Assembly: GCF_018889995.1 (NCBI RefSeq)
Contig: NZ_CP076547.1
Coordinates: forward strand, 2,170,001 to 2,234,000
DNA: 64,000 bases
Direction of reading: 5' to 3'
Source of the DNA: Subtercola sp. PAMC28395
GTDB lineage: Bacteria; Actinomycetota; Actinomycetes; Actinomycetales; Microbacteriaceae
The notes under the pieces were generated by a model that worked only from the letters and a program-made list of their open reading frames with translations, was not told the origin of the DNA and searched no databases. A program made the translations under genes and the position numbers. This document shows, in pieces, positions 19,835 to 36,598 of the stretch; within the stretch, counting starts at the first letter, position 1; every line of letters starts with the position of its first letter.

Positions 19835-19893
19835 AGTCCCACGGTATCTCCTCCAGACCGGCGCTGGTTCGGCCGCGCCCAGCGCTTTCGTGC

Positions 19894-19953
19894 GTTGTGT
19901 GGTCAGAAAACCCCCTAAGATCCGGGTTTTGGGTGCTTTTCTGCCCACACAAC
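19894..19953. repeat. Long imperfect inverted repeat
   Basis: GTTGTGTGGTCAGAAAA (19894-19910) is the reverse complement of TTTTCTGCCCACACAAC (19937-19953) with one mismatch in 17 bases. An inner set of short C-run and G-run arms can extend the stem. It sits between the end of the nickel-permease gene and the start of the helicase, both on the minus strand. It may be a terminator for the hyp/nickel arm or a dispersed extragenic palindrome. Confidence 0.6.
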
Positions 19954-19956
19954 GGG

Positions 19957-20000
19957 GTGCCACCGGGTGTCACGGGGTGTCACCGGGTGTCACCGGGCGA
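19957..20000. repeat. Tandem 10-bp repeat over the 3' end of the nickel-permease gene
   Basis: Four consecutive copies of a unit close to GGTGTCACCG occupy this stretch and encode the last residues of the permease, including its stop codon. Confidence 0.6.
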
Positions 20001-21124
20001 CTGCGCGGAACGCTGCGGTGCAGACACCAGCGTTCTTCGATGCGGCCGAAACGCCATGCCGCCAGCGCTATGACCCAGGAGAGCACGAAGATCGCCACGA
20101 TCGCGTACCCGACACTGTTGAGGTCGAGCGAGCCGATCGCGGCGAGGGGCCCCGAGGTGATCCCGGCACGATCGACGACAATCGAGACCACCTCGATCGT
20201 GCCGATCACGAGCGCAACCGCCACTGAGAGGGCCGTGATGACGACGTTGTAGTAGACCTTGCGAACGGGCGTCGTGAACGCCCAGTTGTATGCGACCGTC
20301 ATGAACACGCCGTCGAGGGAGTCGAGCAGGCTCATCCCGGCGGCGAAGAGAATCGGCAGCGTCAGAAGCGCGTACCAGGGCAGTGCGAAAGCCGCGGCAC
20401 CCCCGGCGAGAACCAGCAGGCCGACCTCTGTGGCCGTGTCGAACCCCAGGCCGAAGAGCAGCCCGACGACGTACATGTGCCGGGGTCGCCGCACCACGGC
20501 CCCTACCCGACCGAAGACACGGTTCGCGAAGCCACCACGCTTCTTCAGCTGGTCGTCGAACTCGCTCTCGTCGAACTCACCGCGCCGCATGCCCCGGAAC
20601 ACCTTCACGATGCCGATGAGAACCACGAGATTCAGAATGCCGATGATCCACAGGAAGAGCCCTGAGACGCCGGCGCCGACGAGACCCAGGATCTGGTGGG
20701 TCGCTGATTGGTCTGACTCGACCTGGCCGGCGAGCATCCGGATGCCCGTGGCCAGCAGCACGCAGAGCGCGAGCACCACGCTCGAATGCCCGAGCGAGAA
20801 CCAGAAGCCCACGGTGAGGGGCTTGCCGCCGTCGTGCATGAGCTTGCGGGTGGTGTTGTCGATGGCAGCGATGTGGTCGGCGTCGAAGGCATGGCGGAGC
20901 CCCAGGGTGTAGGCGGTGACTCCGAGGCCGACGCCGAAGAACCCGGCGCTGCTCACCTGCAGGTGCTGTGGTGCCACGATCATGACCAGCACGCCCCAGC
21001 CCACCACATGCAGCAACGCCACGAATGAGAACATGGCCACCAGGGTGACCCGTTCGCGCCGGGTGAGTGCTGACCTGGCCTTCGAAAAGCGGGATTTCGA
21101 GAAGCGCAGGTCTTCTACTGCCAT
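19970..21124 (-). CDS. High-affinity nickel permease (HoxN/HupN/NixA family)
   Basis: This integral membrane protein of 384 residues imports Ni2+ (possibly Co2+) across the cytoplasmic membrane. The diagnostic HX4DH motif is present as RHAFDADHIAAIDN. The companion family motif LGHSSVV and a later block GFDTATEVG are also conserved, with about eight hydrophobic segments. The start ATG (21122-21124) overlaps the end of hypB by 10 bases, so it is translationally coupled to the nickel-insertion genes. This makes supply of nickel to the hydrogenase its obvious job. The C-terminal residues are encoded by a short tandem repeat and may vary between strains. The frame extends far upstream within hypB, but that part is a shadow. 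Confidence 0.95.
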   Translation of the reverse strand: MAVEDLRFSKSRFSKARSALTRRERVTLVAMFSFVALLHVVGWGVLVMIVAPQHLQVSSAGFFGVGLGVTAYTLGLRHAFDADHIAAIDNTTRKLMHDGGKPLTVGFWFSLGHSSVVLALCVLLATGIRMLAGQVESDQSATHQILGLVGAGVSGLFLWIIGILNLVVLIGIVKVFRGMRRGEFDESEFDDQLKKRGGFANRVFGRVGAVVRRPRHMYVVGLLFGLGFDTATEVGLLVLAGGAAAFALPWYALLTLPILFAAGMSLLDSLDGVFMTVAYNWAFTTPVRKVYYNVVITALSVAVALVIGTIEVVSIVVDRAGITSGPLAAIGSLDLNSVGYAIVAIFVLSWVIALAAWRFGRIEERWCLHRSVPRSRPVTPGDTP

Positions 21125-22014
21125 TCCCGCCCAGTGCCGGCCGCTGCGGCTGCTGCGGGGAGAGCGACGCCGGCGATGAGCCAGTCGACCCACTCGGTGA
21201 TGCCTTCGCCCGTCTTGGCACTCGTGTGGATCACGGTAGCGGTGGGGTTGATCAGCCGCAGGTTCGACTCGAACAGGGCGAGGTCGAAATCGAGATACGG
21301 CAACAGGTCGATCTTGTTCACGATCACCACGTCGACGCTGCGGAACATCACCGGGTACTTCAGCGGCTTGTCTTCGCCCTCGGTCACCGAGTAGACCATC
21401 GCCTTGCGGTGCGCGCCAACGTCGAACTCGGCAGGGCACACGAGATTGCCGACGTTCTCAACCAGCACGAGGTCGAGGTCGTCGAGATTCAGGCCGGTGA
21501 TCGCCCTGGCGACCATCGGTGCATCGAGGTGGCACTCGCCCCCGAAGCCGTTGCCCGTGTTGAGCAGTGAGATCTGCGCGCCGTATCCGCGCAGACGGTC
21601 GGCATCGATCGAGGTCTCGATGTCGCCTTCGATCACGCCGCAGCGCACAACGCCCTGAAGCTGGTCGAGGGTGCGGCCGAGCACGCTCGTCTTACCGGAG
21701 CCGGGAGACGACATGAGGTTGACCGCGACGACTCCTGCGGCGTCGAACAGCGCGAGGTTACGGGCGGCCGCGGCGTCGTTCTCGTCGAAGATGCGCTCGA
21801 GCACCTGGATGCGTTCGGTGCCGGTCTCGTAGCCCGAGTGGTCTCCGAGGTGGTCGGTGTCGTGCGTGCTGCCGGTGTCATCGTCATGGGGATGCTCGTG
21901 GGGTTCGTGGTGCGAATGCGTGTGATCATCGTGAGAGTGTTCAGCCCCGCCCTCGTCTGCATCGTGCGAGTGCGAGTGCTCTGTGCCGTCGTCGTGGCGG
22001 TGGAATCGTCCCAT
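21115..22014 (-). CDS. hypB: Hydrogenase nickel-insertion GTPase HypB, His-rich
   Basis: This 299-residue SIMIBI-class GTPase works with HypA to deliver Ni2+ to the hydrogenase large subunit. The P-loop is SSPGSGKTS, followed by ECHLDAPM with the metal-binding Cys-His pair at the GTPase dimer interface, VENVGNLVCPAEFD and NKIDL. The first 65 residues are strikingly histidine-rich, with runs such as HSHSHD, HSHDDHTHSHHEPHEHPHDD. Such tails store or buffer nickel, as in HypB of Bradyrhizobium. ATG at 22014 is chosen because the preceding frame overlaps hypA. It lies 5 bp after hypA. Confidence 0.97.
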   Translation of the reverse strand: MGRFHRHDDGTEHSHSHDADEGGAEHSHDDHTHSHHEPHEHPHDDDTGSTHDTDHLGDHSGYETGTERIQVLERIFDENDAAAARNLALFDAAGVVAVNLMSSPGSGKTSVLGRTLDQLQGVVRCGVIEGDIETSIDADRLRGYGAQISLLNTGNGFGGECHLDAPMVARAITGLNLDDLDLVLVENVGNLVCPAEFDVGAHRKAMVYSVTEGEDKPLKYPVMFRSVDVVIVNKIDLLPYLDFDLALFESNLRLINPTATVIHTSAKTGEGITEWVDWLIAGVALPAAAAAAGTGREWQ

Positions 22015-22019
22015 GGTCT

Positions 22020-22358
22020 TCAGTCCTTCACATCGATCGATCTGACGAGGAACTCCTCGCCAGAGGTGACACTGACCGAACCGCCGCCGCAGCGGCCGCA
22101 CAGCAGCATCGGCACGCCCTGCAGCGTCGTGTTCGCACCACAATCGGCACAGGCGATCACCGCGGGAATGGAGGTCACCCGCAACTGGCTGCCCTCGAGG
22201 GCCGACTCCTCGGTCACGACACCCCAGCAGTACACGAGTGTCTCGGGCACCACCTGGCGGAGCTGACCCACGTCGAGCAGGATCTGCGTCACCGCCCGCC
22301 CGGCAGCGGCGCGCTCGGCGATGCCGTAGATCGAGCGGCAGAGCGACAATTCGTGCAT
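22020..22358 (-). CDS. hypA: Hydrogenase nickel chaperone HypA
   Basis: This 112-residue Ni/Zn metallochaperone passes Ni2+ to the large subunit together with HypB. The nickel-binding N terminus MHELS is intact, so the start is certain. The zinc site is two CxxC pairs: CADC (residues 70-73) and CGRC. Length and fold order are typical. It heads the hypA-hypB-nickel permease run and is 107 bp downstream of the AraC-family regulator on the same strand. Confidence 0.97.
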   Translation of the reverse strand: MHELSLCRSIYGIAERAAAGRAVTQILLDVGQLRQVVPETLVYCWGVVTEESALEGSQLRVTSIPAVIACADCGANTTLQGVPMLLCGRCGGGSVSVTSGEEFLVRSIDVKD

Positions 22359-22465
22359 GAGGGTGAGGTCTTCCGTTCAGTGCGAGAGTGCGGGTGGAAC
22401 AGGTGTCGGGGAGAGTGCGGGGTAGTGGGCGGCTTCACGTCGGGTTGGTGCGCAGTGGTGGCGGC

Positions 22466-23524
22466 TCAGTGCTCACGCAGGGTCTGCGACGGTGATTCGC
22501 CGAAGCGTTTTCGGTACAGCACCGAGAACTCACCGAGGTGGTTGAACCCCCAACGCTCGGCTGAGGCGGTAACCGTGACCCCGTCGCTCGGCAGTGCCTC
22601 GAGCAGGTCACCGTGCACCTTTTCAAGTCGGCGCTCGCGGATGAACGCGGTCGGTGTTGTTCCGAGGCTCTCTTTGAACGCCTTCTGCACGGTGCGTGCG
22701 CTGAGGTACACGGCGCCCGCGACCTCAGCGAGTGTCACGGGCTCGGCGAGGTGCTGTTCGATGTAGTCACTGGCCGCCGTCACTGTGGCGTCGTGCTCCA
22801 CGCGGGGGGCGAGCAGTTCGCTGTAGTTCGAGGGCATCGACAGCAGCAGGGATGAGATCAGCAGCTCCTCGATGCTCGAGAGCCCGATTCCGAGGTTCAC
22901 GAGAGAGTCGGGCATCATGACTTCGGCGCTGAGCAGCTGGATCGCCATGTTCCACCGCACTGCCCGGGGGGAGGTGAGTTCGAGCACCGGGTCGAAGACG
23001 ATCGGCTTCGTGATGCTCCTGCCGAGCATCCGGCTCAGTTGGCGTTCGACGCTCTCGCGCTCGAGGCGCACGATGAGCTGGGGCGAGTCGAAGTCGAACA
23101 TCTGTCGAACGTGGGTTCCGGGTGACGTGACGATCGCGCTGGTCGAGGTGGCGATGACGTTGGCGCCCCCGATGAGGCAGGCCGAACGCCCGAAGGTATG
23201 GATGTGCACGGTGAAGATGTCGTCTGTGGCGGGGATGTCGAGCGTGACCGCCGAGTGGAAGTCGAGGTGGGCGAGAGTGACGCCCCGCACTCGCACGGCG
23301 TTCAGCGCCGCCTGAAAACCGGAGGCCTCTGAGAAATCGACCGTCAGCCGGTTCCTGCCGAGAAATGCCCCCACCAGCACGCTTGCCTGCTCGACATCTG
23401 CGGTGCAGAACACCTCGCGCCCGGCGAGCGCCGGGGGCACGCCCCTCGAGCGGAGCCGGGGGCTGACGGGCAGATCTGTAGCGCGCGCGTCGATGAACCC
23501 CAGTCGCGACAGGCGCTGCGTCAT
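22466..23524 (-). CDS. AraC-family regulator, candidate hydrogenase regulator
   Basis: This 352-residue regulator has an N-terminal AraC-binding-like (cupin-type) domain and a C-terminal pair of helix-turn-helix motifs. The segment VTLAEVAGAVYLSARTVQKAFKESLGTTPTAFIRERRLEKVHGDL is split between the two helices, followed by AERWGFNHLGEFSVLYRKRFGESPSQTLRE. This C-terminal block is the standard AraC signature. ATG at 23524 has AGGAAA upstream. It lies divergently from the structural operon and upstream of hypA, so it is well placed to control both arms. That role is inferred from position only. Its effector is unknown. Carbon-starvation or redox signals are plausible for this hydrogenase class. 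Confidence 0.85.
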   Translation of the reverse strand: MTQRLSRLGFIDARATDLPVSPRLRSRGVPPALAGREVFCTADVEQASVLVGAFLGRNRLTVDFSEASGFQAALNAVRVRGVTLAHLDFHSAVTLDIPATDDIFTVHIHTFGRSACLIGGANVIATSTSAIVTSPGTHVRQMFDFDSPQLIVRLERESVERQLSRMLGRSITKPIVFDPVLELTSPRAVRWNMAIQLLSAEVMMPDSLVNLGIGLSSIEELLISSLLLSMPSNYSELLAPRVEHDATVTAASDYIEQHLAEPVTLAEVAGAVYLSARTVQKAFKESLGTTPTAFIRERRLEKVHGDLLEALPSDGVTVTASAERWGFNHLGEFSVLYRKRFGESPSQTLREH

Positions 23525-23662
23525 TGATTTCCTGTTCCGAAAAACCGTGCGGAGGTGAAGCGTTCGCAATCACGATAGTTGCTGCGTTCTGCGGATAGTC
23601 GGGACTAAAGGCCCGCTCTACTGTCGGAGAAGAAGCCACGATTCTCACCAGGAGGAGCAGCT
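23525..23662. promoter_or_regulatory. Divergent control region between the AraC regulator and the hydrogenase operon
   Basis: These 138 bases separate two divergent genes and must hold both promoters. I do not see consensus -10/-35 boxes that I would stand behind. AGGAGGAGCAGCT just before 23663 is a strong ribosome binding site for the first operon gene. Confidence 0.5.
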
Positions 23663-24253
23663 ATGAGCGTGCATACGGCAACCGCGCCTGCGGAAGCGGG
23701 CATCAGTGCGCACGACGCACTTCTGGCCCGCCTCGACGACCCGGCGACGGCCGCGGAGCTCAGCGATCTGCTCGACAACATCTCCACCCTGAGTGGGCTG
23801 CTCACTGCCACGGGCTCGTTTCTGGCCCGCGGCGAAGAAGTGCTCGACAACGTGGCCAGCAGCTACCAGGAGATCGCCGGCAGCCTGTCTGCCGATGCCT
23901 CGCTGGCGGGTGCGCTGAAGACGGGCATGAAGCTCGCCGGCCAGGCCGCACCGCTTGCGGGCACCTTGGCCGATACGGCAGTACTCGAAAAGCTCGCAGA
24001 CCCCGCACTGCTCGAACTGCTTGCGACACTCGTCGGTGCGATCAGCACGACCCAGGCCGCCGTCAGGGCCGACCCTGTCGCCCACGAATACGGGCTCACC
24101 AGGGCCGCGCGTGCCACCCGTGACCCCGATGTGAAGCGTGGCATCGGGTTCGTGCTCGGCATTCTGAAAGAGCTCGGCAAGTCACTCGATGCGCCGGCCA
24201 CCGCTGTTCGAACCAGCCCAGCAGATGTTAAACCAAGAGTGAGGACCAAGTAA
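23663..24253 (+). CDS. DUF1641 family protein, first gene of the hydrogenase operon
   Basis: This 196-residue, nearly all-helical protein with Ala/Leu-rich amphipathic segments matches the DUF1641 family. The C-terminal block RDPDVKRGIGFVLGILKELGKSL is the family core. DUF1641 genes occur beside [NiFe]-hydrogenase genes of this class and beside formate dehydrogenase genes. They are thought to help assembly, membrane association or electron transfer, but the biochemistry is not settled. An excellent ribosome binding site (AGGAGGAG) precedes the ATG. The stop TAA shares one base with the ATG of the small subunit (TAATG), so the two are translationally coupled. This argues for a dedicated role with the enzyme. 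Confidence 0.8.
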   Translation: MSVHTATAPAEAGISAHDALLARLDDPATAAELSDLLDNISTLSGLLTATGSFLARGEEVLDNVASSYQEIAGSLSADASLAGALKTGMKLAGQAAPLAGTLADTAVLEKLADPALLELLATLVGAISTTQAAVRADPVAHEYGLTRAARATRDPDVKRGIGFVLGILKELGKSLDAPATAVRTSPADVKPRVRTK

Positions 24254-25224
24254 TGACCAGTGTCTTGTGGCTCCAGGGCGGCGCGTGTTCCGGCAACACG
24301 ATGTCGTTCCTGAATGCCGATGAACCGAACGTGGTCGACCTGATCGTGGACTTCGGGCTCGAAGTGCTCTGGCACCCCTCCCTCGGGGTCGAGATGGGCC
24401 AGAACGCCCAGAAGATCTTCACGGACTGCGTCAGCGGTGCCCAGCCGCTCGACATCTTCGTCTTCGAGGGCAGCATCATCGAGGGCCCGAACGGCACCGG
24501 CCGCTTCGACATGTTCGCCGATCGCCCGATGAAGGACTGGGCGCGCGAGTTCGCGGAGTCGGCCTCGATCGTGGTCGCCATCGGCGACTGCGCCTGCTTC
24601 GGCGGAATCCCGGCGATGGAGCCGAACCCCAGTTCCTCGACGGGCCTGCAGTTCCACAAGCGCAGCAAGGGCGGCTTTCTCGGCGCTGACTGGAAGTCGA
24701 AGAGCGGCCTTCCCGTCATCAACATTCCCGGATGCCCGGCCCACCCCGACTGGATCACCCAGATCATCGTGGCACTCGCCACAGGTCGCGCCGGCGATAT
24801 CGCCCTCGACGAACTGCACCGCCCGCAGACCTTCTTCACGACGTTCGTGCACAACGGCTGCACGCGCAACACCTTCTTCGAGTTCAAGCAGTCGACCATG
24901 CTCTTCGGTGAGGGCACCCGCACCGGCTGCTTGTTCTACGAGTTCGGGTGCCGTGGCCCGATGACCCACGCCCCCTGCAACCGCATCCTGTGGAATCGCC
25001 AGTCGTCGAAGACGCGGGCGGGCATGCCGTGCCTCGGGTGCACGGAGCCTGAGTTCCCCCACGCCGATCTGGCACCGGGAACCGTGTTCAAGACGCAGAA
25101 GATCGCCGGTGCGATTCCCAAAGAGGTGCCCACCGGCCAGGACCACGTCACCTACATGGCCATGGCCGCCGCGGCGAAGATCGGCGCGCCGCAGTGGTCG
25201 AAGGAAGACATGTTCGTCGTCTGA
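24253..25224 (+). CDS. hhyS: [NiFe]-hydrogenase small subunit, group 1h type
   Basis: This 323-residue electron-transfer subunit of an uptake hydrogenase carries three Fe-S clusters from the active site outward. It has no Tat signal peptide and no C-terminal membrane helix, as in actinobacterial high-affinity (group 1h, formerly group 5) enzymes, so it acts inside the cell. The N terminus LQGGACSGNTMSFLN replaces the usual CxxC proximal-cluster motif with a single cysteine (C12, then N15). C115 and C161 (PGCP) supply two more proximal ligands. H200, C203, C226 and C233 fit the distal site, and C242, C260 and C263 the medial site. In the group 1h enzyme of Ralstonia the proximal cluster is held by three Cys and one Asp. 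The acidic fourth ligand cannot be assigned here. Confidence 0.95.
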   Translation: MTSVLWLQGGACSGNTMSFLNADEPNVVDLIVDFGLEVLWHPSLGVEMGQNAQKIFTDCVSGAQPLDIFVFEGSIIEGPNGTGRFDMFADRPMKDWAREFAESASIVVAIGDCACFGGIPAMEPNPSSSTGLQFHKRSKGGFLGADWKSKSGLPVINIPGCPAHPDWITQIIVALATGRAGDIALDELHRPQTFFTTFVHNGCTRNTFFEFKQSTMLFGEGTRTGCLFYEFGCRGPMTHAPCNRILWNRQSSKTRAGMPCLGCTEPEFPHADLAPGTVFKTQKIAGAIPKEVPTGQDHVTYMAMAAAAKIGAPQWSKEDMFVV

Positions 25225-25282
25225 TGCCCCGCCCCGGGCATCCATTCGGCTTCTGAATTCCCCCGCACGCACCACCGCACTC

Positions 25283-25318
25283 TCTGCACAGCCAGCACAG
25301 TCTGCACAGCCAGCACAG
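25283..25318. repeat. Perfect 18-bp tandem duplication between the hydrogenase subunit genes
   Basis: The unit TCTGCACAGCCAGCACAG occurs twice with no mismatch (25283-25300, 25301-25318), and half-units of CAGCACAG are repeated within. It lies in the 123-bp gap between the small- and large-subunit genes, just upstream of the ribosome binding site for the latter. Confidence 0.9.
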
Positions 25319-25347
25319 ATAGACCTCACGAAGAAGAAGGAACACTG

Positions 25348-26958
25348 ATGACCTCAACAATCGACCTGAACGTCAGCCCGCTGGGCCGGGTCGAGGGTGA
25401 CCTCGATGTGCGGGTCATCATTGAAGACGGCGTGGTGACCGACGCCTGGACAAAGGCCATGATGTTCCGCGGTTTCGAGACGATTCTGCGCGGCAAGGAC
25501 ATGCAGGCCGGCCTCATCATGACGCCGCGGATCTGTGGCATCTGCGGCGGCAGCCACCTCTACAAGGCCTGTTACGCCCTCGACACGGCGTTCAAGACCT
25601 ATGTGCCGCACAACGCGACCCTCATCCGCAACATCGCCCAGGCTGTCGAAACGCTGCAGTCCATTCCGCGGTACTTCTACGCGCTGTTCGCCATCGACCT
25701 GACGCACGAGAAATACAAGAACTCTCCGCTCTATGACGAAGCGTGCCGCCGCTTCAGTGCCTACGTCGGCACGAGCTACCAGTCGGGTGTCGTGCTGAGC
25801 CAGAAGCCCGTCGAGGTGTACGCGATCTTCGGCGGCCAGTGGCCACACTCCTCGTTCATGGTTCCCGGCGGCATCATGGGCGCACCGACTCTCTCTGATG
25901 TCACCCGCTCGACGGCCATCCTGGCCAACTGGAAGGACAACTGGCTCGAGAATCAATGGCTCGGATGCTCGATCGACCGCTGGCTCGCCAACGAGACGTG
26001 GGATGACATTCTCGCCTGGGTCGACGAGAACGAAGCCCAGAAGAACTCCGACTGCGGGTTCTTCATTCGCTACTGCCTCGACATCGGACTCGACAAGTAC
26101 GGCCAGGGCTGGGGAAACTACATCGCGGCCGGCACCTATTTCGACCCTGAGGCATACGAGAACCCCACCATCGACGGCCGCAACGCCGCGCTCATCAACC
26201 GTTCGGGTGTCTATGCGAACGGAAAGCACCACGAGTTCGACCAGGCCCGCATCTCTGAAGACGTCGCGCATTCGTTCTACACGGGCGGCGACGTCGTGCA
26301 CCCCTTCGACGGCACGCAGAACGCGATCGACCCCCTCGAGGGCGCCAAGCACGACAAGTACTCGTTCGCCAAGGCGCCGCGGTACGACGTCGAAGGCGTC
26401 GGCCGGCTCCCGCTCGAGGCCGGTCCGCTGGCACGGCGGATCGTCTCCGGTAAGCCGACGACCGAAGCCCACCAGGACTACGACCCCCTGTTCACCAACG
26501 TGATGGGAACCCTCGGGCCGTCGGTGATGGTGCGCCAGCTCGCCCGCATGCACGAGGCACCGAAGTACTACAAGCTCGTGATGGACTGGCTCAGCCGCAT
26601 CGACCTGCACGGCTCGTTCTATGTGAAGCCCGAAGAGCCCGTCAATGCTCGCGGCTACGGCGGAACCGAGGCCGCGCGCGGTGCTCTGCAGGACTGGATC
26701 GTGATCGAAGACTCGAAGATCGCGAACTACAACGTGATCACCCCGAGCGGCTGGAACATCGGCCCACGCGACAAAGACGCGATTCTCGGCCCGATCGAGA
26801 AGGCCCTGGTCGGCACCCCGGTGTACGACACGAGCGACCCTGTCGAGCTCGGCCACGTCACACGGAGCTTCGACGCGTGCATCGTGTGCACGGTGCACGC
26901 CTACGACGGCAAGACCGGGCGAGAGCTGTCGAGCTTCGTGATCAACAGCATGGTCTGA
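25348..26958 (+). CDS. hhyL: [NiFe]-hydrogenase large subunit, group 1h type
   Basis: This 536-residue catalytic subunit splits H2 at a Ni-Fe(CN)2CO centre. Both cysteine pairs that hold the metals are present: the L1 motif RICGICGGSH (R61, C63, C66, H70) and the L2 motif DACIVCTVH (C511, C514, H517). L2 is followed by 19 residues (AYDGKTGRELSSFVINSMV) that the maturation protease must remove after H517. The L1 sequence with GGSHLYKACYALDTAF differs from the DNHATC form of group 2a enzymes and fits the actinobacterial Hhy type known for oxidising H2 at atmospheric concentration. The start ATG follows AAGAAGAAGGAA. The protease gene begins 8 bp downstream. Confidence 0.96.
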   Translation: MTSTIDLNVSPLGRVEGDLDVRVIIEDGVVTDAWTKAMMFRGFETILRGKDMQAGLIMTPRICGICGGSHLYKACYALDTAFKTYVPHNATLIRNIAQAVETLQSIPRYFYALFAIDLTHEKYKNSPLYDEACRRFSAYVGTSYQSGVVLSQKPVEVYAIFGGQWPHSSFMVPGGIMGAPTLSDVTRSTAILANWKDNWLENQWLGCSIDRWLANETWDDILAWVDENEAQKNSDCGFFIRYCLDIGLDKYGQGWGNYIAAGTYFDPEAYENPTIDGRNAALINRSGVYANGKHHEFDQARISEDVAHSFYTGGDVVHPFDGTQNAIDPLEGAKHDKYSFAKAPRYDVEGVGRLPLEAGPLARRIVSGKPTTEAHQDYDPLFTNVMGTLGPSVMVRQLARMHEAPKYYKLVMDWLSRIDLHGSFYVKPEEPVNARGYGGTEAARGALQDWIVIEDSKIANYNVITPSGWNIGPRDKDAILGPIEKALVGTPVYDTSDPVELGHVTRSFDACIVCTVHAYDGKTGRELSSFVINSMV

Positions 26959-26966
26959 GACCCGCG

Positions 26967-27590
26967 ATGACAGGTGTGCGTGCGGTGACAGGTGGCGTCG
27001 TGCTCGGCGATCCGCTGAGCGACGACCTGCCTGCTGCGGCGCAGCAACCGTGGGAGCTGCTCAACGATGGCTTCGATCATCCGCGCATCGAGTTGCTGGT
27101 CATCGGCTGCGGCAACGTGCTCCGTGGTGACGACGCCGCAGGCCCCGTGGTTGTTCGCCGGCTGTGGGAGCGCGGCGGCCTGGGCGAGCACGTGCGCCTC
27201 GCCGACGGAGGAACCAGTGGCATGGATGTGGCCTTCCAGATGCGTCACGCCGACCGGGTGCTGATTGTGGATGCTGCGCGAACCGGTGCCGCACCCGGAA
27301 CGATCTACCGCGTACCCGGCATCGAACTGGCGGCGCTGCCGCCCGTGTCGGGGGTGGCGAGCCACGACTTCCGCTGGGACAACGCGATCGCCTTCGGACA
27401 CTGGCTGCTCGGCCCCCTCATGCCCACCGAGATAGAGGTGTACCTCATCGAGGGCCGGGACTTCGAGTTCGGCGAAGCGCTGAGTGCCCCGGTCGACGCC
27501 GCCATCGACGCGGTCGCCGAGCTGATCGAACTGCAGGCCGAGGCGTTGCTCGGCGAACGGCACGTGGTCGGTGAAGTGGGCCATGCCTGA
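26967..27590 (+). CDS. Hydrogenase maturation protease (HyaD/HoxM family)
   Basis: This 207-residue endopeptidase clips the C-terminal peptide of the large subunit after nickel insertion. The family signature LLVIGCGNVLRGDDAAGPVV (about residues 43-62) includes the first nickel-sensing acidic residue (GDDA). ADRVLIVDAARTGAAPG holds the second, and SHDFRW the histidine. An N-terminal extension of about 40 residues precedes the domain. ATG at 26967 lies 8 bp after the large-subunit stop. Its end overlaps the next gene by 8 bp. Presence of the cleavable tail in the adjacent large subunit supports the pairing. Confidence 0.92.
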   Translation: MTGVRAVTGGVVLGDPLSDDLPAAAQQPWELLNDGFDHPRIELLVIGCGNVLRGDDAAGPVVVRRLWERGGLGEHVRLADGGTSGMDVAFQMRHADRVLIVDAARTGAAPGTIYRVPGIELAALPPVSGVASHDFRWDNAIAFGHWLLGPLMPTEIEVYLIEGRDFEFGEALSAPVDAAIDAVAELIELQAEALLGERHVVGEVGHA

Positions 27591-29276: not shown

Positions 29277-29395
29277 GCAGCACCTCGCTGTGTAGCAGGC
29301 AGATCAACCCGACCGAGGCTGACATCCGCGCTTGCTGACGCTCAGGCATCACCCCCGCGCAACCACGAATTTCGCATCAACGAAAGGAACCGAGA

Positions 29396-29935
29396 ATGAC
29401 ACTCACGAGTCCGTCCATGCCCTCTGCAGCAGATTCCCTCGACTCGAGCAGCCCAGACTCGAGTAGCCCAGACGCGAGCCTCGCCGTTGCCGCCGCCACC
29501 GACGTGAGCGAGCTGGCTGTGCGTCTCGATGCCGCTGTGCAGGGCATCCGGAGCCTTGACCCCGGCGTGCAGGTGGTGGCAGAGCAGTTCGCCCTCGCGC
29601 TCGATGCCCTCTCGCGTGTTGCGCTCACGACCATCGTGAAGGCACTGCGGGCCGACCCGCGCGGTACCGAGCTGCTGTTCGAACTCCTGGACGACGAGGC
29701 CGTGCGCATGCTGCTCGGAATGTACGGCATCATTCGCCTGCCCGACCCGGAGCAGGCGCAGAGGGCGGCTGCTGGGCTCGGGGCCGACGGCGTGGCGCCG
29801 GCTCCTGCGAAGGCGGGCCGCGCCTTCATCAGCCTGGACTCGATGCTCCGCGGCCCGTCGGAGCAGACCGGGGGAGGGTGCGGCACCGCTGGTGACAGCT
29901 GCGGCCCTGAATCCTGCGTCTGCGGCGACCACTGA
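29396..29935 (+). CDS. Small hydrogenase-associated protein with a Cys-rich tail
   Basis: This 179-residue protein has a Ser/Asp/Pro-rich leader (a 15-bp unit encoding DSSSP is duplicated at 29441-29470). A helical core follows (about residues 40-125, QFALALDALSRVALTTIVKALRADPRGTELLFELLDDEAVRMLLGMYGIIRLP). The C-terminal tail has four cysteines (C162, C169, C174, C176) and ends CGDH. The core resembles the helical segment of NifU-like proteins encoded with actinobacterial hydrogenases, but the NifU and Rieske cluster domains I would expect downstream are missing. The cysteine tail could bind an Fe-S cluster or another metal. The start has AAAGGAACCGAG upstream. It lies between the TPR gene and hypF. 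Confidence 0.7.
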   Translation: MTLTSPSMPSAADSLDSSSPDSSSPDASLAVAAATDVSELAVRLDAAVQGIRSLDPGVQVVAEQFALALDALSRVALTTIVKALRADPRGTELLFELLDDEAVRMLLGMYGIIRLPDPEQAQRAAAGLGADGVAPAPAKAGRAFISLDSMLRGPSEQTGGGCGTAGDSCGPESCVCGDH

Positions 29936-29961
29936 CCTGCGCTCGCCGACTCCACGACCAT

Positions 29962-32298
29962 ATGCCTCGACGTTCATATGTCATCCGCGGGGTCGTGCAG
30001 GGCGTCGGATTCCGCCCTCACGTCGCCCGGGTTGCCAGCGCCTTTCGCGTGAGCGGGTTCTGCGGCAACGACGAGGAATCGGTGTTCATCGAGGTCCAAG
30101 GTGCTCATCGGGAGGTGGCGGCGTTCTTCGATGCCGTCTGCCAGACACTGCCGCCGCTGGCGAGTATCGTGTCGTGGGAGGCACTCGATGTAGCGGAGCT
30201 CGACGAACCTGGTGGCTTTCGAATTGTTGCCAGCCACCACGCGGCGGGTGCCCGCACTCTCGTGCCTCCCGACGTTGCGTGCTGCGCAGAGTGCCTGGCC
30301 GAACTCTCCGACCCTGCGGACAGGCGCTACCAGTACCCGTTCATCACGTGCACGAACTGTGGCCCCCGCCTCAGCATCGTGCGTGACCTGCCGTACGACC
30401 GTTCGACGACGACCCTCGCCGAGTTCGCGATGTGCGTGGCGTGCACGGCCGAATACGAGGACCCGACGAGCCGCCGGTTCCACGCCCAGACGATCAGCTG
30501 CTTCGAATGCGGGCCCGTGCTGTGGCTGCAGGCAGTGGATGACCGGCCAGACGACTTCGCACTCTGGGGTGATGCCATCGCTCAGGCCAGGGCGCTTCTC
30601 GCAGCAGGCCGGATCGTCGCGGTGAAGGGTATCGGCGGGTTCCACCTGCTCTGTGATGCCACGAATGACCTGGCTGTTGCACGCCTCCGCCAGCGGAAGA
30701 ACCGTCCGGACAAACCCCTGGCGATCATGGTCGCGTCGCTGGAAGTCGCCAGTACTATCGCCTCGCTGTCGACGAACCAGCAGCAGCAGCTCGCGAGCCC
30801 GCAGCGGCCGATCGTGCTCTGCCCGCAGGCTCCGACGTACGCGCTCGCTGACGCCGTCGCCCCTGGTCTCGATGACATCGGAGTGATGCTGCCATACGCA
30901 CCGCTGCACGAGCTCTTGCTCGGGGGTGTGACCGGCGCGCGACCCGGCGCACGGCCGCTCACCCTCGTGGCCACGAGCGGAAACTGCGGGGGAGAGCCCC
31001 TGAGCTACCGCAACGACGATGCACTGGCGAACCTGGCGGGAATCGCCGATGCCTTCCTGATGCACGACCGCGGCATCCATGTGCCCGTCGAGGACTCTGT
31101 GCTGCTTGCCGACGGATCGACGACACTGCCGATCAGGCGCAGCCGCGGCTACGCGCCGCTCCCGGTGAAGCTGGGTTCGGCTGATGCCCACGTTCTCGCG
31201 GTGGGTGGTGAGGTCAAGAACACGTTCGCCTTCACCCGCAACGGGCTCGCCTTTCTGAGTGCGCACATCGGCGACATGGGCTCGCTCGCGAGCCAGCGGG
31301 CCTTCGAGGCAAGCGTCGAGCAGCTCGTGGGCTTCCATGCCCAACCCCCGCAACTCGTCGTTGCGGACAAGCACCCGGGATACGCCACGACGGGATGGGC
31401 CCAGCGCTATTGCGAGCGCACCGGAGTCGACTTGTTGCAGGTGCAGCACCACCACGCCCACGCGCTGAGTCTGCTCGCCGAACACGACGCTGCCGGTGAA
31501 GACGTGGCGGTGGCCGTCTTCGACGGCACGGGTTATGGCGATGACGGCACGGTCTGGGGTGGGGAGATCCTCGTTCTCGGCGCCGACCCGCTCAGCTTCG
31601 AGCGAGCCTGGCACCTGCCGACCTTCTCCATTCCCGGGGGCGAGAGCGCTGTACGCAACCCCTGGAAGCTCGCGGTCGCCCTGCTCGCCGAGCACGGCAT
31701 CGAAACGGATGACCTGCCACCCCTGCTCGCAGCGCCGCCCGCAGAGCTCCGCCTGGTGCAGAGCCAGCTGCGATCATCCACCGCCCTCGTTCGCACCAGC
31801 AGCGCCGGACGGATCTTCGACGCCATCTCGTCGCTTCTCGGGATCCGGCACCACGTGAGCTATGAAGCCCAGGCCGCCATGGAGCTCGAACGCGCCGCAC
31901 GGGAATGCGACCACCCGCACCACGCAGCACTCGTGCATCACGCAGCAGCCCTGCACGCCGGATCCGCCGTCGACGAGCTCGGCGAACTGCTGTCAAGGCT
32001 CGTCTGGGGGCTGCGACGGGGTACGGCTGTGAGCTGTCTGGCCCGCCAGGCCCATTCGGGACTCGCTGCCATCACAGCACGGGACTTAAGTCACACCTGT
32101 GAGGTTCGCGGCATCCATACAGTGGGTCTCAGCGGTGGTGTGTTTCAGAACCGGCTCTTCACACGGTCGGTTCAGAATGCCTTGTCTGACTCGCAGACGA
32201 CGATCTCGACAGTCTTGACTCACCAGCGTGTGCCTGCCAACGACGGCGGCCTGAGCCTCGGCCAGGCGCTCGCCGGGTACCTGCAACTGACGAGCTGA
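29962..32298 (+). CDS. hypF: Carbamoyltransferase HypF
   Basis: This 778-residue enzyme uses carbamoyl phosphate and ATP to carbamoylate the C-terminal cysteine of HypE, the first step in making the cyanide ligands of the active site. The domains run in the usual order: N-terminal acylphosphatase (VQGVGFRPHVARVA), paired zinc-finger motifs (CCAEC, CTNC, CVAC, CFEC), a YrdC-like domain (VAVKGIGGFHLLCDA) and a Kae1-like domain with HHHAHALSLLAEH and GLSGGVFQNRLF. Length is typical. The ATG at 29962 is 26 bp after the preceding gene and lacks a strong ribosome binding site. Confidence 0.97.
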   Translation: MPRRSYVIRGVVQGVGFRPHVARVASAFRVSGFCGNDEESVFIEVQGAHREVAAFFDAVCQTLPPLASIVSWEALDVAELDEPGGFRIVASHHAAGARTLVPPDVACCAECLAELSDPADRRYQYPFITCTNCGPRLSIVRDLPYDRSTTTLAEFAMCVACTAEYEDPTSRRFHAQTISCFECGPVLWLQAVDDRPDDFALWGDAIAQARALLAAGRIVAVKGIGGFHLLCDATNDLAVARLRQRKNRPDKPLAIMVASLEVASTIASLSTNQQQQLASPQRPIVLCPQAPTYALADAVAPGLDDIGVMLPYAPLHELLLGGVTGARPGARPLTLVATSGNCGGEPLSYRNDDALANLAGIADAFLMHDRGIHVPVEDSVLLADGSTTLPIRRSRGYAPLPVKLGSADAHVLAVGGEVKNTFAFTRNGLAFLSAHIGDMGSLASQRAFEASVEQLVGFHAQPPQLVVADKHPGYATTGWAQRYCERTGVDLLQVQHHHAHALSLLAEHDAAGEDVAVAVFDGTGYGDDGTVWGGEILVLGADPLSFERAWHLPTFSIPGGESAVRNPWKLAVALLAEHGIETDDLPPLLAAPPAELRLVQSQLRSSTALVRTSSAGRIFDAISSLLGIRHHVSYEAQAAMELERAARECDHPHHAALVHHAAALHAGSAVDELGELLSRLVWGLRRGTAVSCLARQAHSGLAAITARDLSHTCEVRGIHTVGLSGGVFQNRLFTRSVQNALSDSQTTISTVLTHQRVPANDGGLSLGQALAGYLQLTS

Positions 32299-32309
32299 GG
32301 AGCCACCGT

Positions 32310-32549
32310 ATGTGCCTGGCAATACCGGGGCAGATCATCCGGACCTGGAATGACGGCGGCGCGATCTTCGCCGAGGCCGACTTCAACGGGGAGACCCGCA
32401 AGGTGTGTCTCAACTTTCTGCCTGACCTCGACGTCGGCGACTACGTCATCGTGCACGCCGGCTACGCGCTCAGCCGCGTGGGAATAGAGCAGGTCGCCCA
32501 AGTGATGGAGAGCATGCGCGACGCGGGGCTTCTCGAGGTGCAGTCGTGA
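32310..32549 (+). CDS. hypC: Hydrogenase chaperone HypC, copy 1
   Basis: This 79-residue chaperone carries the Fe(CN)2CO unit between HypD and the large subunit. The functional N terminus MCLAIPGQI contains the essential Cys2. The rest (GDYVIVHAGYALSRV) is the canonical OB-like fold. TGAGGAGCC precedes the ATG. Its stop overlaps the GTG of the next gene (GTGA). Confidence 0.96.
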   Translation: MCLAIPGQIIRTWNDGGAIFAEADFNGETRKVCLNFLPDLDVGDYVIVHAGYALSRVGIEQVAQVMESMRDAGLLEVQS

Positions 32550-33202
32550 GTGAGCTGCGGGCTGCGGCGATCACGCTTGCTCGCGCCCTGGAACCCGGCG
32601 GCATCGTGTTCTGCGTGCCCGCTGGGGCGGTGGAGGGATCCTCCCCACTCGACTTAGCCCCGTTCGACTTCTCCCCACTCAACATCGACAGCGCTGAAAT
32701 CCAGTTGCGCGCTTTGTCGCGGCCGGGCGATGCCGTGCTTGTCGTCGGCGACTTCGCCGGGCGCGACCGTCTGCTGCGCCGCTGCCCAGCGTGGGGCGTC
32801 GCGTCGGTCTGGGTGGGCACGGATGATCGGCCAGAGCCTGGGCTGGCAACCGTCTGCCTGCTCGTACCCGACCAGAAGTGCACGCTCGATGCTCTCGTGG
32901 GGCAGATGCGGGCGCTCGCGGGAGACACCGAACAACTTGCGCCGGAAGTAGTCGACTGCACAGACGAGGTCTGCATCACCTGCAGCGATGAGGGGCGCCT
33001 GGGTGAAGTGGTGTTTGTGCAAGGGGGGTATCTTCCGGCGCGGGTACGCACGGCGACGGGGGTCGAAGAGGTCGATCTGACGCTCGTCGGCGACCTGATG
33101 GTCAATGAACTCATCCTGATTCACGCCGGCAGTGCCATCGCCGTCGTCCCCGAAGCCGAGCCTGAACCCAGTTTCGAACCCCTGACCGTACGAGGAGCCT
33201 GA
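32546..33202 (+). CDS. Fusion of a SIS-like domain with a HypC-like domain
   Basis: In this 218-residue protein residues 1-130 look like a sugar-isomerase (SIS/GmhA-like) Rossmann fold (EIQLRALSRPGDAVLVVGDFAGRDRLLRRCPAWGVASVWVG). Residues 138-201 look like HypC (GRLGEVVFVQGGYLPAR, then LVGDLMVNELILIHAGSAIAVV). The HypC part is not at the N terminus, so it lacks the free Met-Cys start. It has instead a local set of cysteines (C138, C143, C146) just before the fold. SIS-domain genes next to hypC are known in actinobacterial hydrogenase loci. A role in protecting or handing over the iron ligand complex is inference. The stop is immediately followed by the hypE ATG. Confidence 0.75.
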   Translation: MSELRAAAITLARALEPGGIVFCVPAGAVEGSSPLDLAPFDFSPLNIDSAEIQLRALSRPGDAVLVVGDFAGRDRLLRRCPAWGVASVWVGTDDRPEPGLATVCLLVPDQKCTLDALVGQMRALAGDTEQLAPEVVDCTDEVCITCSDEGRLGEVVFVQGGYLPARVRTATGVEEVDLTLVGDLMVNELILIHAGSAIAVVPEAEPEPSFEPLTVRGA

Positions 33203-34315
33203 ATGACCGTCTCCCATCCCGTCACGCGGGGAAACAACCGGCTCAACGACTCCGAGCAACAGGTGCTCGAGCGCATCGAGGCGTTTCGTCGCCGCAGGCC
33301 CCGGCTGATCGACGAGACCATCACCCTCGCCCACGGAGCCGGAGGAAAATCATCGGCCGCGCTGGTCGACGCCGTGTTCGTCGAGGCGTTCGGCAACCCG
33401 GCTCTCGACGAGATGGGCGACGGGGCCGTATTGACCGTACCGGCCGGCCGCGTGGCATTCTCCACCGATTCCTACGTCGTGAATCCGATCTTCTTTCCCG
33501 GCGGCAGCATTGGAGACCTCGCTGTGAACGGCACGGTGAACGACCTTGCGGTCAGCGGTGCCGAACCGAAATGGCTGAGTGCAGCCTTCGTCATCGAAGA
33601 GGGGCTGCCCATCGCCACTCTGCGGCAGATCGTCGCCGACATGCAGTCGGCGGCCGAGGCTGCGGGAGTGCTGATCGTCACCGGCGACACGAAGGTCGTT
33701 CCGAAGGGCGCCGCCGATCGTGTCTTCATCACCACCGCCGGAATCGGCGTGATCCCCGAGGCACGCAGGCTCGGCGCCACTTTGGTGGAGCCGGGCGACC
33801 GGGTGATCGTCTCTGGGTCGATCGGGGACCACGGCATGGCCGTCATGATGGCGCGCGGCGACCTGGCGATCGAGGCCGACATCCACAGTGACACGCGCTC
33901 GGTGGCCGGCCTCGTCGCCGCACTGCTCGAAGCCGCCCCCGAGACCAGATGGATGCGCGATGCCACTCGCGGAGGGCTGGGTACCGTCGCCAACGAGCTC
34001 GCCCAGGCCTCGGGGCTCGGCGTCGTGCTCGACGAGGATTCCCTGCCCGTGAAACCGATGGTGCGCGGAGCCTGCGACATGCTGGGCATCGACCCGCTCT
34101 ACGTTGCCAACGAAGGATGCTTCGTGGCTATCGTTCCGGCAGAGGGTGCTGCCGCGGCTGTCGAGGCACTGCGGTTGCTGCCCGGCGGGGCAGACGCAGC
34201 GGTGATCGGGGAGATCGTGGCCGACCCCGCCGAAATCGTGGTGGTGCGAACCAGCTTCGGAGGTACCCGCATCGTCGACATGCTCGTCGGAGACCCGCTC
34301 CCTCGAATCTGCTGA
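33203..34315 (+). CDS. hypE: Carbamoyl dehydratase HypE
   Basis: This 370-residue enzyme converts the carbamoyl group on its own C-terminal cysteine into thiocyanate, giving CN- to the iron in the HypCD complex. It ends in the signature PRIC, so the acceptor cysteine is intact. It also has the family blocks TLAHGAGGKSS, DGAVLTVP, GDLAVNGTVNDLAVSGAEP and GDTKVVPKG. The ATP-binding fold is of the PurM/SelD type. The N-terminal extension of about 35 residues is charged. The ATG follows the preceding stop directly. Confidence 0.97.
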   Translation: MTVSHPVTRGNNRLNDSEQQVLERIEAFRRRRPRLIDETITLAHGAGGKSSAALVDAVFVEAFGNPALDEMGDGAVLTVPAGRVAFSTDSYVVNPIFFPGGSIGDLAVNGTVNDLAVSGAEPKWLSAAFVIEEGLPIATLRQIVADMQSAAEAAGVLIVTGDTKVVPKGAADRVFITTAGIGVIPEARRLGATLVEPGDRVIVSGSIGDHGMAVMMARGDLAIEADIHSDTRSVAGLVAALLEAAPETRWMRDATRGGLGTVANELAQASGLGVVLDEDSLPVKPMVRGACDMLGIDPLYVANEGCFVAIVPAEGAAAAVEALRLLPGGADAAVIGEIVADPAEIVVVRTSFGGTRIVDMLVGDPLPRIC

Positions 34316-34350
34316 ATCCGTACCTTCACAACTACGAAAGGCGAACACTG

Positions 34351-34623
34351 ATGTGTTTGGGAATCCCCGGCGAGATCGTCGAGATCGTCGATGCCGACGA
34401 CTGCCTGGCCAAGGTCGATGTGAGCGGCGTGAAACGCACCATCTCGATCCGGCTGCTGGCCGACGAGGGCATCGAGGTCGGTGACTGGGTGCTCGTGCAC
34501 GTAGGTTTCGCCATGAGCAAGATCGACGAAGCCGAGGCCCAGATGACGCTCGACCAGATCAAGAAGCTCGGCCAGACCTACGACGAAGAACTGATTGCAT
34601 TCATGGAAACGGAGATTGTCTAG
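34351..34623 (+). CDS. hypC: Hydrogenase chaperone HypC, copy 2
   Basis: This 90-residue HypC paralogue starts MCLGIPGEIVEIVD, again with Cys2, and continues with the canonical DWVLVHVGFAMSKIDEAEA. It differs clearly from copy 1 at 32310, so this is not a recent duplication. It is followed by hypD with a one-base overlap (TAGTG), which is the normal neighbour of the HypC that forms the HypCD scaffold. Copy 1 may then be the version that escorts the large subunit. That division of labour is inference. Confidence 0.96.
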   Translation: MCLGIPGEIVEIVDADDCLAKVDVSGVKRTISIRLLADEGIEVGDWVLVHVGFAMSKIDEAEAQMTLDQIKKLGQTYDEELIAFMETEIV

Positions 34624-35753
34624 TGAAGTTCGTCGACGAGTTCCGCGACCCCGCTGCGGCGAAGGGTCTGCTCAAGGTCATCACCAAGCTCGCCGAAGAA
34701 TCGGGCCGCACCTTCAAGTTCATGGAGGTCTGCGGCGGTCACACGCACACGATCTACCGGCACGGCATCGAGCACCTGTTGCCCGATTCCATCGAGCTCA
34801 TCCACGGCCCTGGATGCCCGGTGTGCGTCATACCGATGGGCCGCGTCGACGACGCGGGATGGCTCGCTCGGCAGCCCGGCGTCATCTTCACGACCTTCGG
34901 CGACATGATGCGGGTTCCCGGAACGCAGGGGAGCCTGCTGCAGGCCAAGGCCGATGGCGCCGACGTGCGGTTCGTCTATTCGCCGCTCGATGCACTGAAG
35001 ATTGCGGTCGACAACCCCGACCGACAGGTCGTCTTCTTCTCCGTGGGCTTCGAGACCACGGCGCCATCGACCGCCGTGACGCTCGTCAGAGCGAAGGCCC
35101 TCGGGGTGACGAACTTCTCCATCTTCTGCAACCACGTCACGATCGAGCCTCCGCTTCGTGCCATCCTCGATTCCGATGACCTGGTGCTAGACGGGTTCAT
35201 CGGCCCGGGCCATGTCTCCACGGTGGTCGGCACCCGCATCTTCGACTTCATTCCGAATGAGTACCACATCCCCATCGTCGTCACCGGGTTCGAACCCCTC
35301 GACATTCTGCAGTCCATCGAGATGCTCCTGACCCAGTACGCCGAGGGTCGCTGCGAGGTCGAGAACCAGTATGCGCGGGTCGTTCGCGAAGACGGCAACC
35401 CGCAGGCGCTGGCCCTGATGGAGAAGACGTTCACCCTGCGCGACACCTTCGAGTGGCGGGGGCTCGGCTATATTCCCCGCTCGGGGCTCGCCGTGCATCC
35501 GGATTTCGCCCAGTTCGACGCCGAGAAGCGCTTCGACCTTCCGGGCGTTCGTGTTCAGGACCCACCCGCGTGCGAGTGCGGCGGGGTGCTCAAGGGTGTC
35601 ATCAAGCCGTGGGAGTGCAAGGTCTTCGGCACGGCCTGCACGCCCGAGACGCCCATCGGCACCTGCATGGTTTCGCCAGAGGGTGCCTGTGCGGCGTACT
35701 ACAACTTCGGGCGCATGCACCGCGAGGCTGCGCTGGCCGTGGGCAGCGCCTGA
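34623..35753 (+). CDS. hypD: Fe-S scaffold protein HypD
   Basis: This 376-residue scaffold, together with HypC, assembles Fe(CN)2CO. Conserved cysteine motifs are FMEVCGGHTH, HGPGCPVCVIP and the C-terminal cluster CECGGVLKGVIKPWECKVFG with GTACTPETPIGTCMVSPEGAC, which binds a [4Fe-4S] cluster. The start is GTG overlapping the hypC stop by one base. Length is typical for the family. Confidence 0.97.
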   Translation: MKFVDEFRDPAAAKGLLKVITKLAEESGRTFKFMEVCGGHTHTIYRHGIEHLLPDSIELIHGPGCPVCVIPMGRVDDAGWLARQPGVIFTTFGDMMRVPGTQGSLLQAKADGADVRFVYSPLDALKIAVDNPDRQVVFFSVGFETTAPSTAVTLVRAKALGVTNFSIFCNHVTIEPPLRAILDSDDLVLDGFIGPGHVSTVVGTRIFDFIPNEYHIPIVVTGFEPLDILQSIEMLLTQYAEGRCEVENQYARVVREDGNPQALALMEKTFTLRDTFEWRGLGYIPRSGLAVHPDFAQFDAEKRFDLPGVRVQDPPACECGGVLKGVIKPWECKVFGTACTPETPIGTCMVSPEGACAAYYNFGRMHREAALAVGSA

Positions 35754-35758
35754 CGACC

Positions 35759-36520
35759 GTGGGCAGCCCACCTGTGCCCGCGAGGCACACCCGCGGTGAG
35801 CAGCTGTTCGGCCGGTATGCGTATTCTCCGAACGAACTCGGGTACTGCGGGCCGGCCGGTGCCGCCGGGCTGGCCGCGGTTGCCCGTGGCGAGAACGCTG
35901 CAGTGGATGTTCGGGGTGTCGCTTCACGCTTCTCCGGGGCCTGGGCCTACCAGGTCGTCATCGCCGACATGCTCGGTCTCGACCCGCTCGATGCCGAGGT
36001 CGTGCGCGGGTACTGGACGGGCACGGCAGCGACCGCAGCGCTCGACAGGCAGGAGTTCTGGGCCCGCCTGCTCGCAGTGATCGGCCCACAGGCCGGCTCG
36101 TACTGGAAGCACCTCGACGCGGCACTCGCCGTCGAAGCCGCGCCGAACCACGCCTTTCACGTACTCGGCGTCTACCCCTGGACGAGGCTGTTGACCACCG
36201 GCCGCCCTGAGCCGGTTCAGGTCATCGACTCCTGCTGCATCCGGCCGGCAACCGTGGTGGGGTTCGCCGATGAGGGCTTGGTCGAGGTGGAGGCTGCGTC
36301 GCTGCGTTTCACCGACGGGGTGCTCTCATTCGACACCGTGTCGACGACGCGGGTCGAGTCCCTGTTCGTTCCGGACCTCGCGGTGGGCGAGCGCGTTGCC
36401 CTGCACTGGGGGGCGATCTGCGATCGTCTCACCTCGGAAGAGGCGTCACTGCTCGGAGTGCAGCTCGGCGATCAAGTGCGCCGTGTCAATGCGCGCCTCT
36501 CGGCCCGACCGCTGGCCTGA
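35759..36520 (+). CDS. DUF6390 family protein at the end of the hyp operon
   Basis: This 253-residue protein matches the pattern I know as DUF6390: an N-terminal FGRYAYSPNELGYCGPA block, a central helical part, HAFHVLGVYPWTRLL, then a beta-rich C-terminal domain with PVQVIDSCCIRPATVVGF and LHWGAICDRLT. No reaction is known. Related genes occur at the end of hyp operons in actinobacteria. The GTG at 35759 is five bases after the hypD stop, so it is the last gene of the operon. The C-terminal half (values such as VVGFADEGLVEVEA, VGERVALHWG) recalls the HypC fold, so a chaperone role is possible but unproven. Confidence 0.78.
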   Translation: MGSPPVPARHTRGEQLFGRYAYSPNELGYCGPAGAAGLAAVARGENAAVDVRGVASRFSGAWAYQVVIADMLGLDPLDAEVVRGYWTGTAATAALDRQEFWARLLAVIGPQAGSYWKHLDAALAVEAAPNHAFHVLGVYPWTRLLTTGRPEPVQVIDSCCIRPATVVGFADEGLVEVEAASLRFTDGVLSFDTVSTTRVESLFVPDLAVGERVALHWGAICDRLTSEEASLLGVQLGDQVRRVNARLSARPLA

Positions 36521-36598
36521 CGGTGCGCGTGCGCGTAACGCGGCAGGTGCGACGCCAGTGGTCGTGGGGTTGATAGGCCATCGCCGTGCATCCGATCG

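Follow-up and report, generated by a model that had tools for sequence, protein, structure and literature searches.

The window analyzed here is a stretch of 64,000 nucleotides of the Subtercola sp. PAMC28395 chromosome (NZ_CP076547.1, positions 2,170,001 to 2,234,000), and it carries a hydrogenase locus, huc, at window positions 19970-36520. On its sequence, the enzyme is a cytosolic [NiFe]-hydrogenase of group 2a, the Huc type, and, by analogy, would be of the oxygen-proof kind that draws energy from trace H2 in air. Two features of the locus are unusual: the accessory protein HucE is stripped of its iron-sulfur (Fe-S) domains, and a divergently transcribed AraC-family gene is paired with a conserved candidate operator. 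Taken as a whole, an explanation that combines a Huc enzyme, an assembly role for HucE, activation by the AraC protein and a transferred block of genes is one that we hold with high confidence. A broader proposal seems to us evenly balanced. It holds both that the AraC protein is the missing direct regulator of huc across Actinobacteria, including Mycobacterium smegmatis, where it would act like XylS and activate from two 16-nt direct repeats next to the -35 box, and that the Microbacteriaceae HucE without Fe-S domains works in assembly rather than as an electron relay.

The closest solved relatives of the large subunit, HucL, were the Huc chains of M. smegmatis (892 bits), as against 107.5 bits for HofG (PDB 5AA5), which we take to be a group 1h enzyme. 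A Hhy-type sequence from a mycobacterial genome (L102) gave the reverse result, with 1080.6 bits to HofG and 114 bits to Huc; it was the one Hhy row compared with the PDB, the rest being placed by clade and motif. Locus counts here and below refer to the best 80 of 419 relatives from a contig scan, plus the window. In a 45-row tree of large subunits (30 of these 81 Huc-type sequences and 15 others), the window HucL fell inside the Huc clade of 30 rows (support 100/99). There it formed a set of four (100/100) with two Microbacterium sequences and one from a metagenome-assembled genome (MAG) filed as Bifidobacteriaceae. Six Hhy rows formed a separate clade (100/100). The long inner branches of this tree leave the branching order among the groups uncertain, but not which group a sequence belongs to.

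The L1 motif of the window, RICGICGGSH, was found in 81 of 81 Huc-type sequences, as was an L2 motif of the form D[SA]C[LI]VC[TQ]VH, which reads DACIVCTVH in the window. It is followed by 19 residues past the L2 histidine, a tail length shared by 80 of the 81 sequences. The Hhy rows instead read RICGICGDNH and DPCLPCGVH. The start of the small subunit, HucS (MTSVLWLQGGACSG), leaves no space for a twin-arginine translocation (Tat) signal ahead of the first cluster motif. The first-pass annotation, made from the sequence alone, had read both motifs, the tail and the Tat-less, cytosolic character correctly, yet had assigned the enzyme to group 1h (Hhy/AH). That group shares with the window enzyme the character of a cytosolic uptake [NiFe]-hydrogenase of aerobes, and a Tat-less actinobacterial enzyme encoded beside a nickel importer would suit it. 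However, the two belong to different clades, and the L1 and L2 motifs cited as a 1h signature belong to group 2a. Huc corresponds to group 2a and Hhy to group 1h (PMC6883350). A large-subunit tree, the check which the annotation had itself proposed, places HucL outside group 1h. Together with the reciprocal bit scores and the motifs, the tree rules out a group 1h identity, to which we give virtually no chance. The features on which the argument turns are as follows, in window positions.

22466-23524, minus strand: AraC-family protein, candidate for the direct regulation of huc (PF14525 and AraC helix-turn-helix over cut-off)
23563-23598, plus strand: candidate operator, tandem 16-nt direct repeats TTCGCAATCACGATAG-TTGC-TGCGTTCTGCGGATAG, period 20
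23619-23624, plus strand: -10-like TACTGT, 20 nt past the proximal half-site (equal spacing in 46 of 61 loci)
23663-24253, plus strand: HucM, stalk/membrane adapter, with C-terminal DUF1641 (phmmer to 7uus_Q, E = 3.3e-12; PF07849)
24253-25224, plus strand: HucS, small subunit (7uur_D, E = 2e-194)
25348-26958, plus strand: HucL, large subunit, group 2a (7uus_A, 892 bits; tree)
29396-29935, plus strand: short HucE, 179 amino acids, N-terminal domain and Cys-rich tail, without NifU-like and without Rieske domain

The DUF1641 protein encoded ahead of hucS matches HucM, the stalk of the 833-kDa complex in M. smegmatis, in the structure of which HucS reduces menaquinone directly (PMC10017518). Active-site and menaquinone-site residues are shared with the M. 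smegmatis enzyme: in alignments, the menaquinone-site residues Lys212, Tyr229 and Tyr301 of HucS and His166, Glu15, Ile64 and Leu112 of HucL were identical in the window. The menaquinone-site residue numbers follow PMC10017518 and were counted by hand, the chain numbering being off by one. The host genome has one COX1 (haem-copper) and two CydA (bd-type) matches for terminal oxidases. Group 2a has been described as the second lineage of hydrogenases for which oxidation of H2 at atmospheric levels was shown, in several phyla; in three species, the enzymes oxidised H2 below the atmospheric level, mainly during growth (PMC7784904). In M. smegmatis, H2 oxidation by Huc is reported around the change from growth to dormancy (PMC13098282). 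By analogy, the earlier suggestion that the host could gain energy from trace H2 would still hold in altered form, as group 2a enzymes also oxidise sub-atmospheric H2.

The AraC protein matches PF12833 and PF00165 over cut-off for its helix-turn-helix. Its putative ATG start is Met16 of the longest open reading frame, and the homologue from G505, an M. smegmatis-like genome, aligns from residue 15. A divergent AraC-family gene adjoins hucM in 66 of 75 loci, those for which 3.2 kb or more of upstream sequence was available (four with short upstream sequence and two without a HucS match were excluded); six loci have none and three have one otherwise arranged. Of 67 intergenic regions, 61 carried the half-site TGCG[CTA]N5-6GAYA[GT] on the huc-ward strand and none carried it on the opposite strand; dinucleotide shuffles gave a mean of 0.89 and a maximum of 5 of 67. 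In 35 of the 67 loci, and in no shuffle, two strict copies stood with their starts 19-22 nt apart, and exactly 20 nt upstream of the half-site the G and A of GAYA recurred in 57 and 58 of 61 loci. Past the proximal copy, TAnnnT stood at 20 nt in 46 of 61 loci and at 21 nt in 6, against a rough expectation of 0.5 per offset. Because the motif had first been spotted by eye, a second mycobacterial set was fetched (23 loci out of 59 HucM-positive genomes; six members of the first set were passed over). The half-site was present in 23 of 23 and the full layout in 22, or in 15 and 14 of 15, respectively, after removal of eight near-copies.

Allowing at most one mismatch, the 36-bp pattern occurs at a single place in the host genome, 23563-23598 of the window. 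Among the eight genomes scanned, a perfect copy lies at the huc promoter in five others; G505 is among these, and shares with the window both the divergent AraC gene and the tandem site. G428 has a two-mismatch copy at its huc promoter; at two mismatches the eight genomes gave 7 matches, the same number as the reversed-pattern control. In the Pm promoter, AraC regulators of the XylS type recognize direct repeats in tandem (TGCAN6GGNTA). The window site resembles this arrangement in its AraC-family protein, in its pair of direct repeats (about 16 nt each, period near 20) and in a proximal repeat that abuts the -35 region, and differs in its sequence, TGCGN7GAYAG. From these sequence patterns, the divergent AraC gene is likely the control switch beside the hydrogenase.

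Several observations weigh against a general role for the AraC protein as activator of huc. The half-site is absent from 6 of the 67 loci (L011, L034, L038, L068, L084 and L090), and of the two nearest relatives of the window, the Microbacterium ginsengisoli locus (L012) has a single half-site without a strict pair and the Microbacterium MAG locus (L011) has none; the M. ginsengisoli genome (G422) gave no 36-bp match within two mismatches. The initial reading of the motif was made by eye, on a few loci of this very set. By record title, mycobacteria make up 41 of the 67 loci and all 23 of the second set; the half-site was present in 41 of 41 mycobacterial loci and in 20 of the 26 others. The AraC protein could also be a repressor. 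In a 2026 paper (PMC13098282), a huc-promoter pull-down named four other regulators, none of which bound the promoter, and the direct regulator of huc was called unidentified. Our literature search found nothing linking AraC and huc.

Since the AraC gene is itself divergent, the site could serve either gene, and the AraC protein might control its own gene or something else, with the repeat upstream of hucM belonging to another factor. We regard this as unlikely, though with an appreciable chance. The half-sites point toward hucM in 61 of 67 loci and are never reversed, and their spacing to the huc-ward -10-like box is fixed. Moreover, nine loci have no divergent AraC gene, and eight of these are siteless within 3 kb upstream of hucS; the ninth (L013) has one lone half-site far upstream. 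HucM was undetectable in five of these nine loci.

In most fetched loci, HucE has about 300 amino acids, with N-terminal, NifU-like and Rieske domains, and is followed by an NHL-repeat gene. All four elements were found by profile search in 65 of 71 loci (ten of the 81, with less than 7 kb downstream of hucL, were excluded). The N-terminal domain alone, with the NHL gene absent, was found in three loci: the window and both Microbacterium loci, which are the three Microbacteriaceae loci counted. The remaining three were L048 (no NHL gene), L050 (NifU-like domain and NHL gene only) and L074 (NHL gene only); in L074, an actinomycete MAG, HucE was undetectable. The window thus differs from M. smegmatis Huc in lacking both Fe-S domains of HucE and the NHL gene. 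With full HucE as the query, the match to the window protein (47%) was confined to residues 20-108. That the missing domains had been frameshifted or displaced was considered and rejected, as the hucE stop ends at 29935, 26 bases ahead of HypF. No other HucE-like match was found in the host genome save a weak Rieske stretch (E 0.054), which lies in one of three Rieske genes elsewhere in the host. The NifU domain PF01106 was not found in the host, in a search that was positive in 12 of 14 control genomes (5 over cut-off). No NHL gene was found elsewhere in the host, in a search without a positive control; tblastn with the same query finds the gene in G505, L127 and L128.

A search of 5.8 billion proteins returned 33 short HucE proteins of 112-194 amino acids, including that of the window; the organisms, where named, were Microbacterium or Lacisediminihabitans. 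Missing long forms in this search prove nothing, because it requires shared exact words and has a length limit of about 313 amino acids. A Cys-rich tail (CGTG...CGPESCGCGGH type) is present in all of the short proteins except P0032 and P0033, and three tail cysteines are conserved at 90% or more in an alignment of 28 of the 33, chosen for folding. The AlphaFold model of the short HucE has a mean predicted local distance difference test (pLDDT) score of 71.5, with helices between residues 25 and 125 and a tail predicted to be disordered (mean pLDDT 43-53 from residue 151). Foldseek against the PDB gave no match (best E 4.9). Truncated HucE forms have been described before, but these lost the C-terminus and kept the NifU-like domain (PMC6883350), which the window protein loses too. 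As HucE exists naturally without either Fe-S domain, the N-terminal domain is probably the core of the protein, and the role of HucE would therefore lie in assembly.

HucE is required for Huc activity in M. smegmatis, also with an artificial acceptor (PMC6883350). Because it is needed there even for artificial-acceptor staining, the loss of its Fe-S domains could leave the window enzyme weak or inactive, which weighs against our explanation as a whole. The losses might then mark a decaying island, on its way out and poor or inactive in its enzyme, and the cluster is rare among Microbacteriaceae (1 of 398 genomes at E<=1e-50), which fits such decay. We think this improbable. All 18 reading frames are open, and the catalytic and quinone-site residues are intact. 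The short HucE is also maintained, as both Microbacterium loci have it and the database search gave 32 further short proteins, 30 of which keep the Cys-rich end. It is rather unlikely, in our view, that the short protein is still an electron relay, with the Cys/His tail binding an Fe-S cluster in place of the NifU-like and Rieske domains between Huc and another acceptor. The conserved tail cysteines would suit a relay, the role favoured by the 2019 authors, who left maturation possible (PMC6883350). Yet in the structure Huc reduces menaquinone directly (PMC10017518), the tail is predicted to be disordered, and loss of HucE abolishes activity with an artificial acceptor as well.

We propose that HucS and HucL would oxidise H2 and pass electrons through the small-subunit clusters straight to menaquinone, and that the HucM stalk would tie the oligomer to the membrane, both by homology with M. 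smegmatis. The Hyp set, the protease and the nickel permease would mature the enzyme. HucE would serve mainly in assembly, its helical N-terminal domain being the conserved core, while the short Cys-rich tail may do the remaining metal handling. The AraC protein would bind the tandem repeat, with the proximal half abutting the huc -35 region, and activate transcription. The whole block would be present or absent as a unit.

The locus comprises 18 genes in two divergent arms, which part at about 23.5-23.66 kb. The minus arm holds AraC, HypA, HypB and NicT. The plus arm runs HucM, HucS, HucL, protease, a protein without family match, a TPR-like protein, short HucE, HypF, HypC, a HypC-domain fusion, HypE, HypC, HypD and DUF6390. 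The remaining features are as follows.

19815-36647, no strand: huc island, absent from sister genome G006, which has 116 bp there (blastn: window homology stops at 19814 and resumes at 36648)
19970-21124, minus strand: NicT nickel permease, putative start (NF052500, E = 2e-156, over cut-off)
21115-22014, minus strand: HypB with His-rich N-terminus, putative start (TIGR00073 over cut-off)
22020-22358, minus strand: HypA (PF01155 over cut-off)
26967-27590, plus strand: maturation protease (TIGR00072 over cut-off)
27583-28050, plus strand: conserved Huc-locus protein, no family match (homologues similarly placed in many loci)
28047-29276, plus strand: TPR-like Huc-locus protein (weak TPR_12 below cut-off; homologues similarly placed in many loci)
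29962-32298, plus strand: HypF (TIGR00143 over cut-off)
32310-32549, plus strand: HypC (TIGR00074 over cut-off)
32546-33202, plus strand: protein with C-terminal HypC domain (PF01455, residues 155-207)
33203-34315, plus strand: HypE (TIGR02124 over cut-off)
34351-34623, plus strand: second HypC (TIGR00074 over cut-off)
34623-35753, plus strand: HypD (TIGR00075 over cut-off)
35750-36520, plus strand: DUF6390 protein, approximate start (PF19927)

Profile searches bore out the 18 genes in two arms as first described, and the description of a self-contained locus with regulator and nickel import holds. HypC is present as stated, though there are three HypC-domain proteins and not two. Of five accessory proteins listed as being of unknown function, two can now be named, HucM and the HucE N-domain protein. 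The order from HucM through HucS, HucL, protease, the unassigned protein and TPR to HucE is that of M. smegmatis (MSMEG_2261-2270). The expectation that the accessory set may differ from described loci also holds: the HypC fusion, the second HypC and the DUF6390 gene, which lie among the hyp genes that follow, were not found in the G505 stretch. The fusion protein (32546-33202) has a long N-terminal part without a Pfam match, and its homologues adjoin HypE in several Huc loci. The M. ginsengisoli and Microbacterium MAG loci share with the window the order from HypB to DUF6390, the short Cys-tailed HucE and the lack of an NHL gene; their large subunits are 82 and 84% identical to that of the window, whereas the AraC proteins are only 44% alike. 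The RNAs in the window comprise one tRNA, with no further Rfam match at gathering score.

Other loci showed different arrangements. L013, the MAG filed as Bifidobacteriaceae, has HucM, HucS, HucL (75% identical) and protease followed by HypF, with no match for the unassigned protein, TPR, HucE or NHL between protease and HypF; this is either an unexpected host or a binning error. Five loci from Mycobacterium or a Mycobacteriaceae MAG (L032, L048, L075, L077 and L089) have HucS and HucL with no detectable HucM, divergent AraC gene or operator, and may represent a Huc variant that lacks the stalk subunit. In three actinomycete MAGs (L037, L049 and L087), HypA and HypB lie between HucM and HucS, the AraC gene is co-directional with hucM, and no operator match was found.

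The locus forms a 16.8-kb presence/absence block: sister genome G006, whose helicase protein is 98% identical to that of the window, has 116 bp in place of 19815-36647. In the congeners G004, G003 and G009, only the helicase gene was matched, which is uninformative for the empty site. The 11 other genomes of the genus yielded no relative of the large subunit, and the one huc cluster among 398 Microbacteriaceae genomes (E<=1e-50) was that of the host itself. Profile searches gave no integrase-family match among the 18 genes, and the island ends showed neither convincing direct repeats nor a break in third-position GC content (GC3) relative to flanking genes. Just inside the left end, at 19880-19990, lie short tandem repeats of the GGGTGTCAC type and an inverted repeat around the end of nicT. 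Gain in the host strain is a simpler reading than loss in the sister, and the island most likely reached the strain by transfer.

Which factor directly regulates huc, and what HucE does, are stated as open questions in PMC13098282 and PMC6883350, respectively. This locus and its relatives offer direct tests of both, through an adjacent candidate regulator with a 36-bp site and through a natural HucE that lacks its Fe-S domains. They also suggest that the trait, rare in this family, can be carried by a single 17-kb block.

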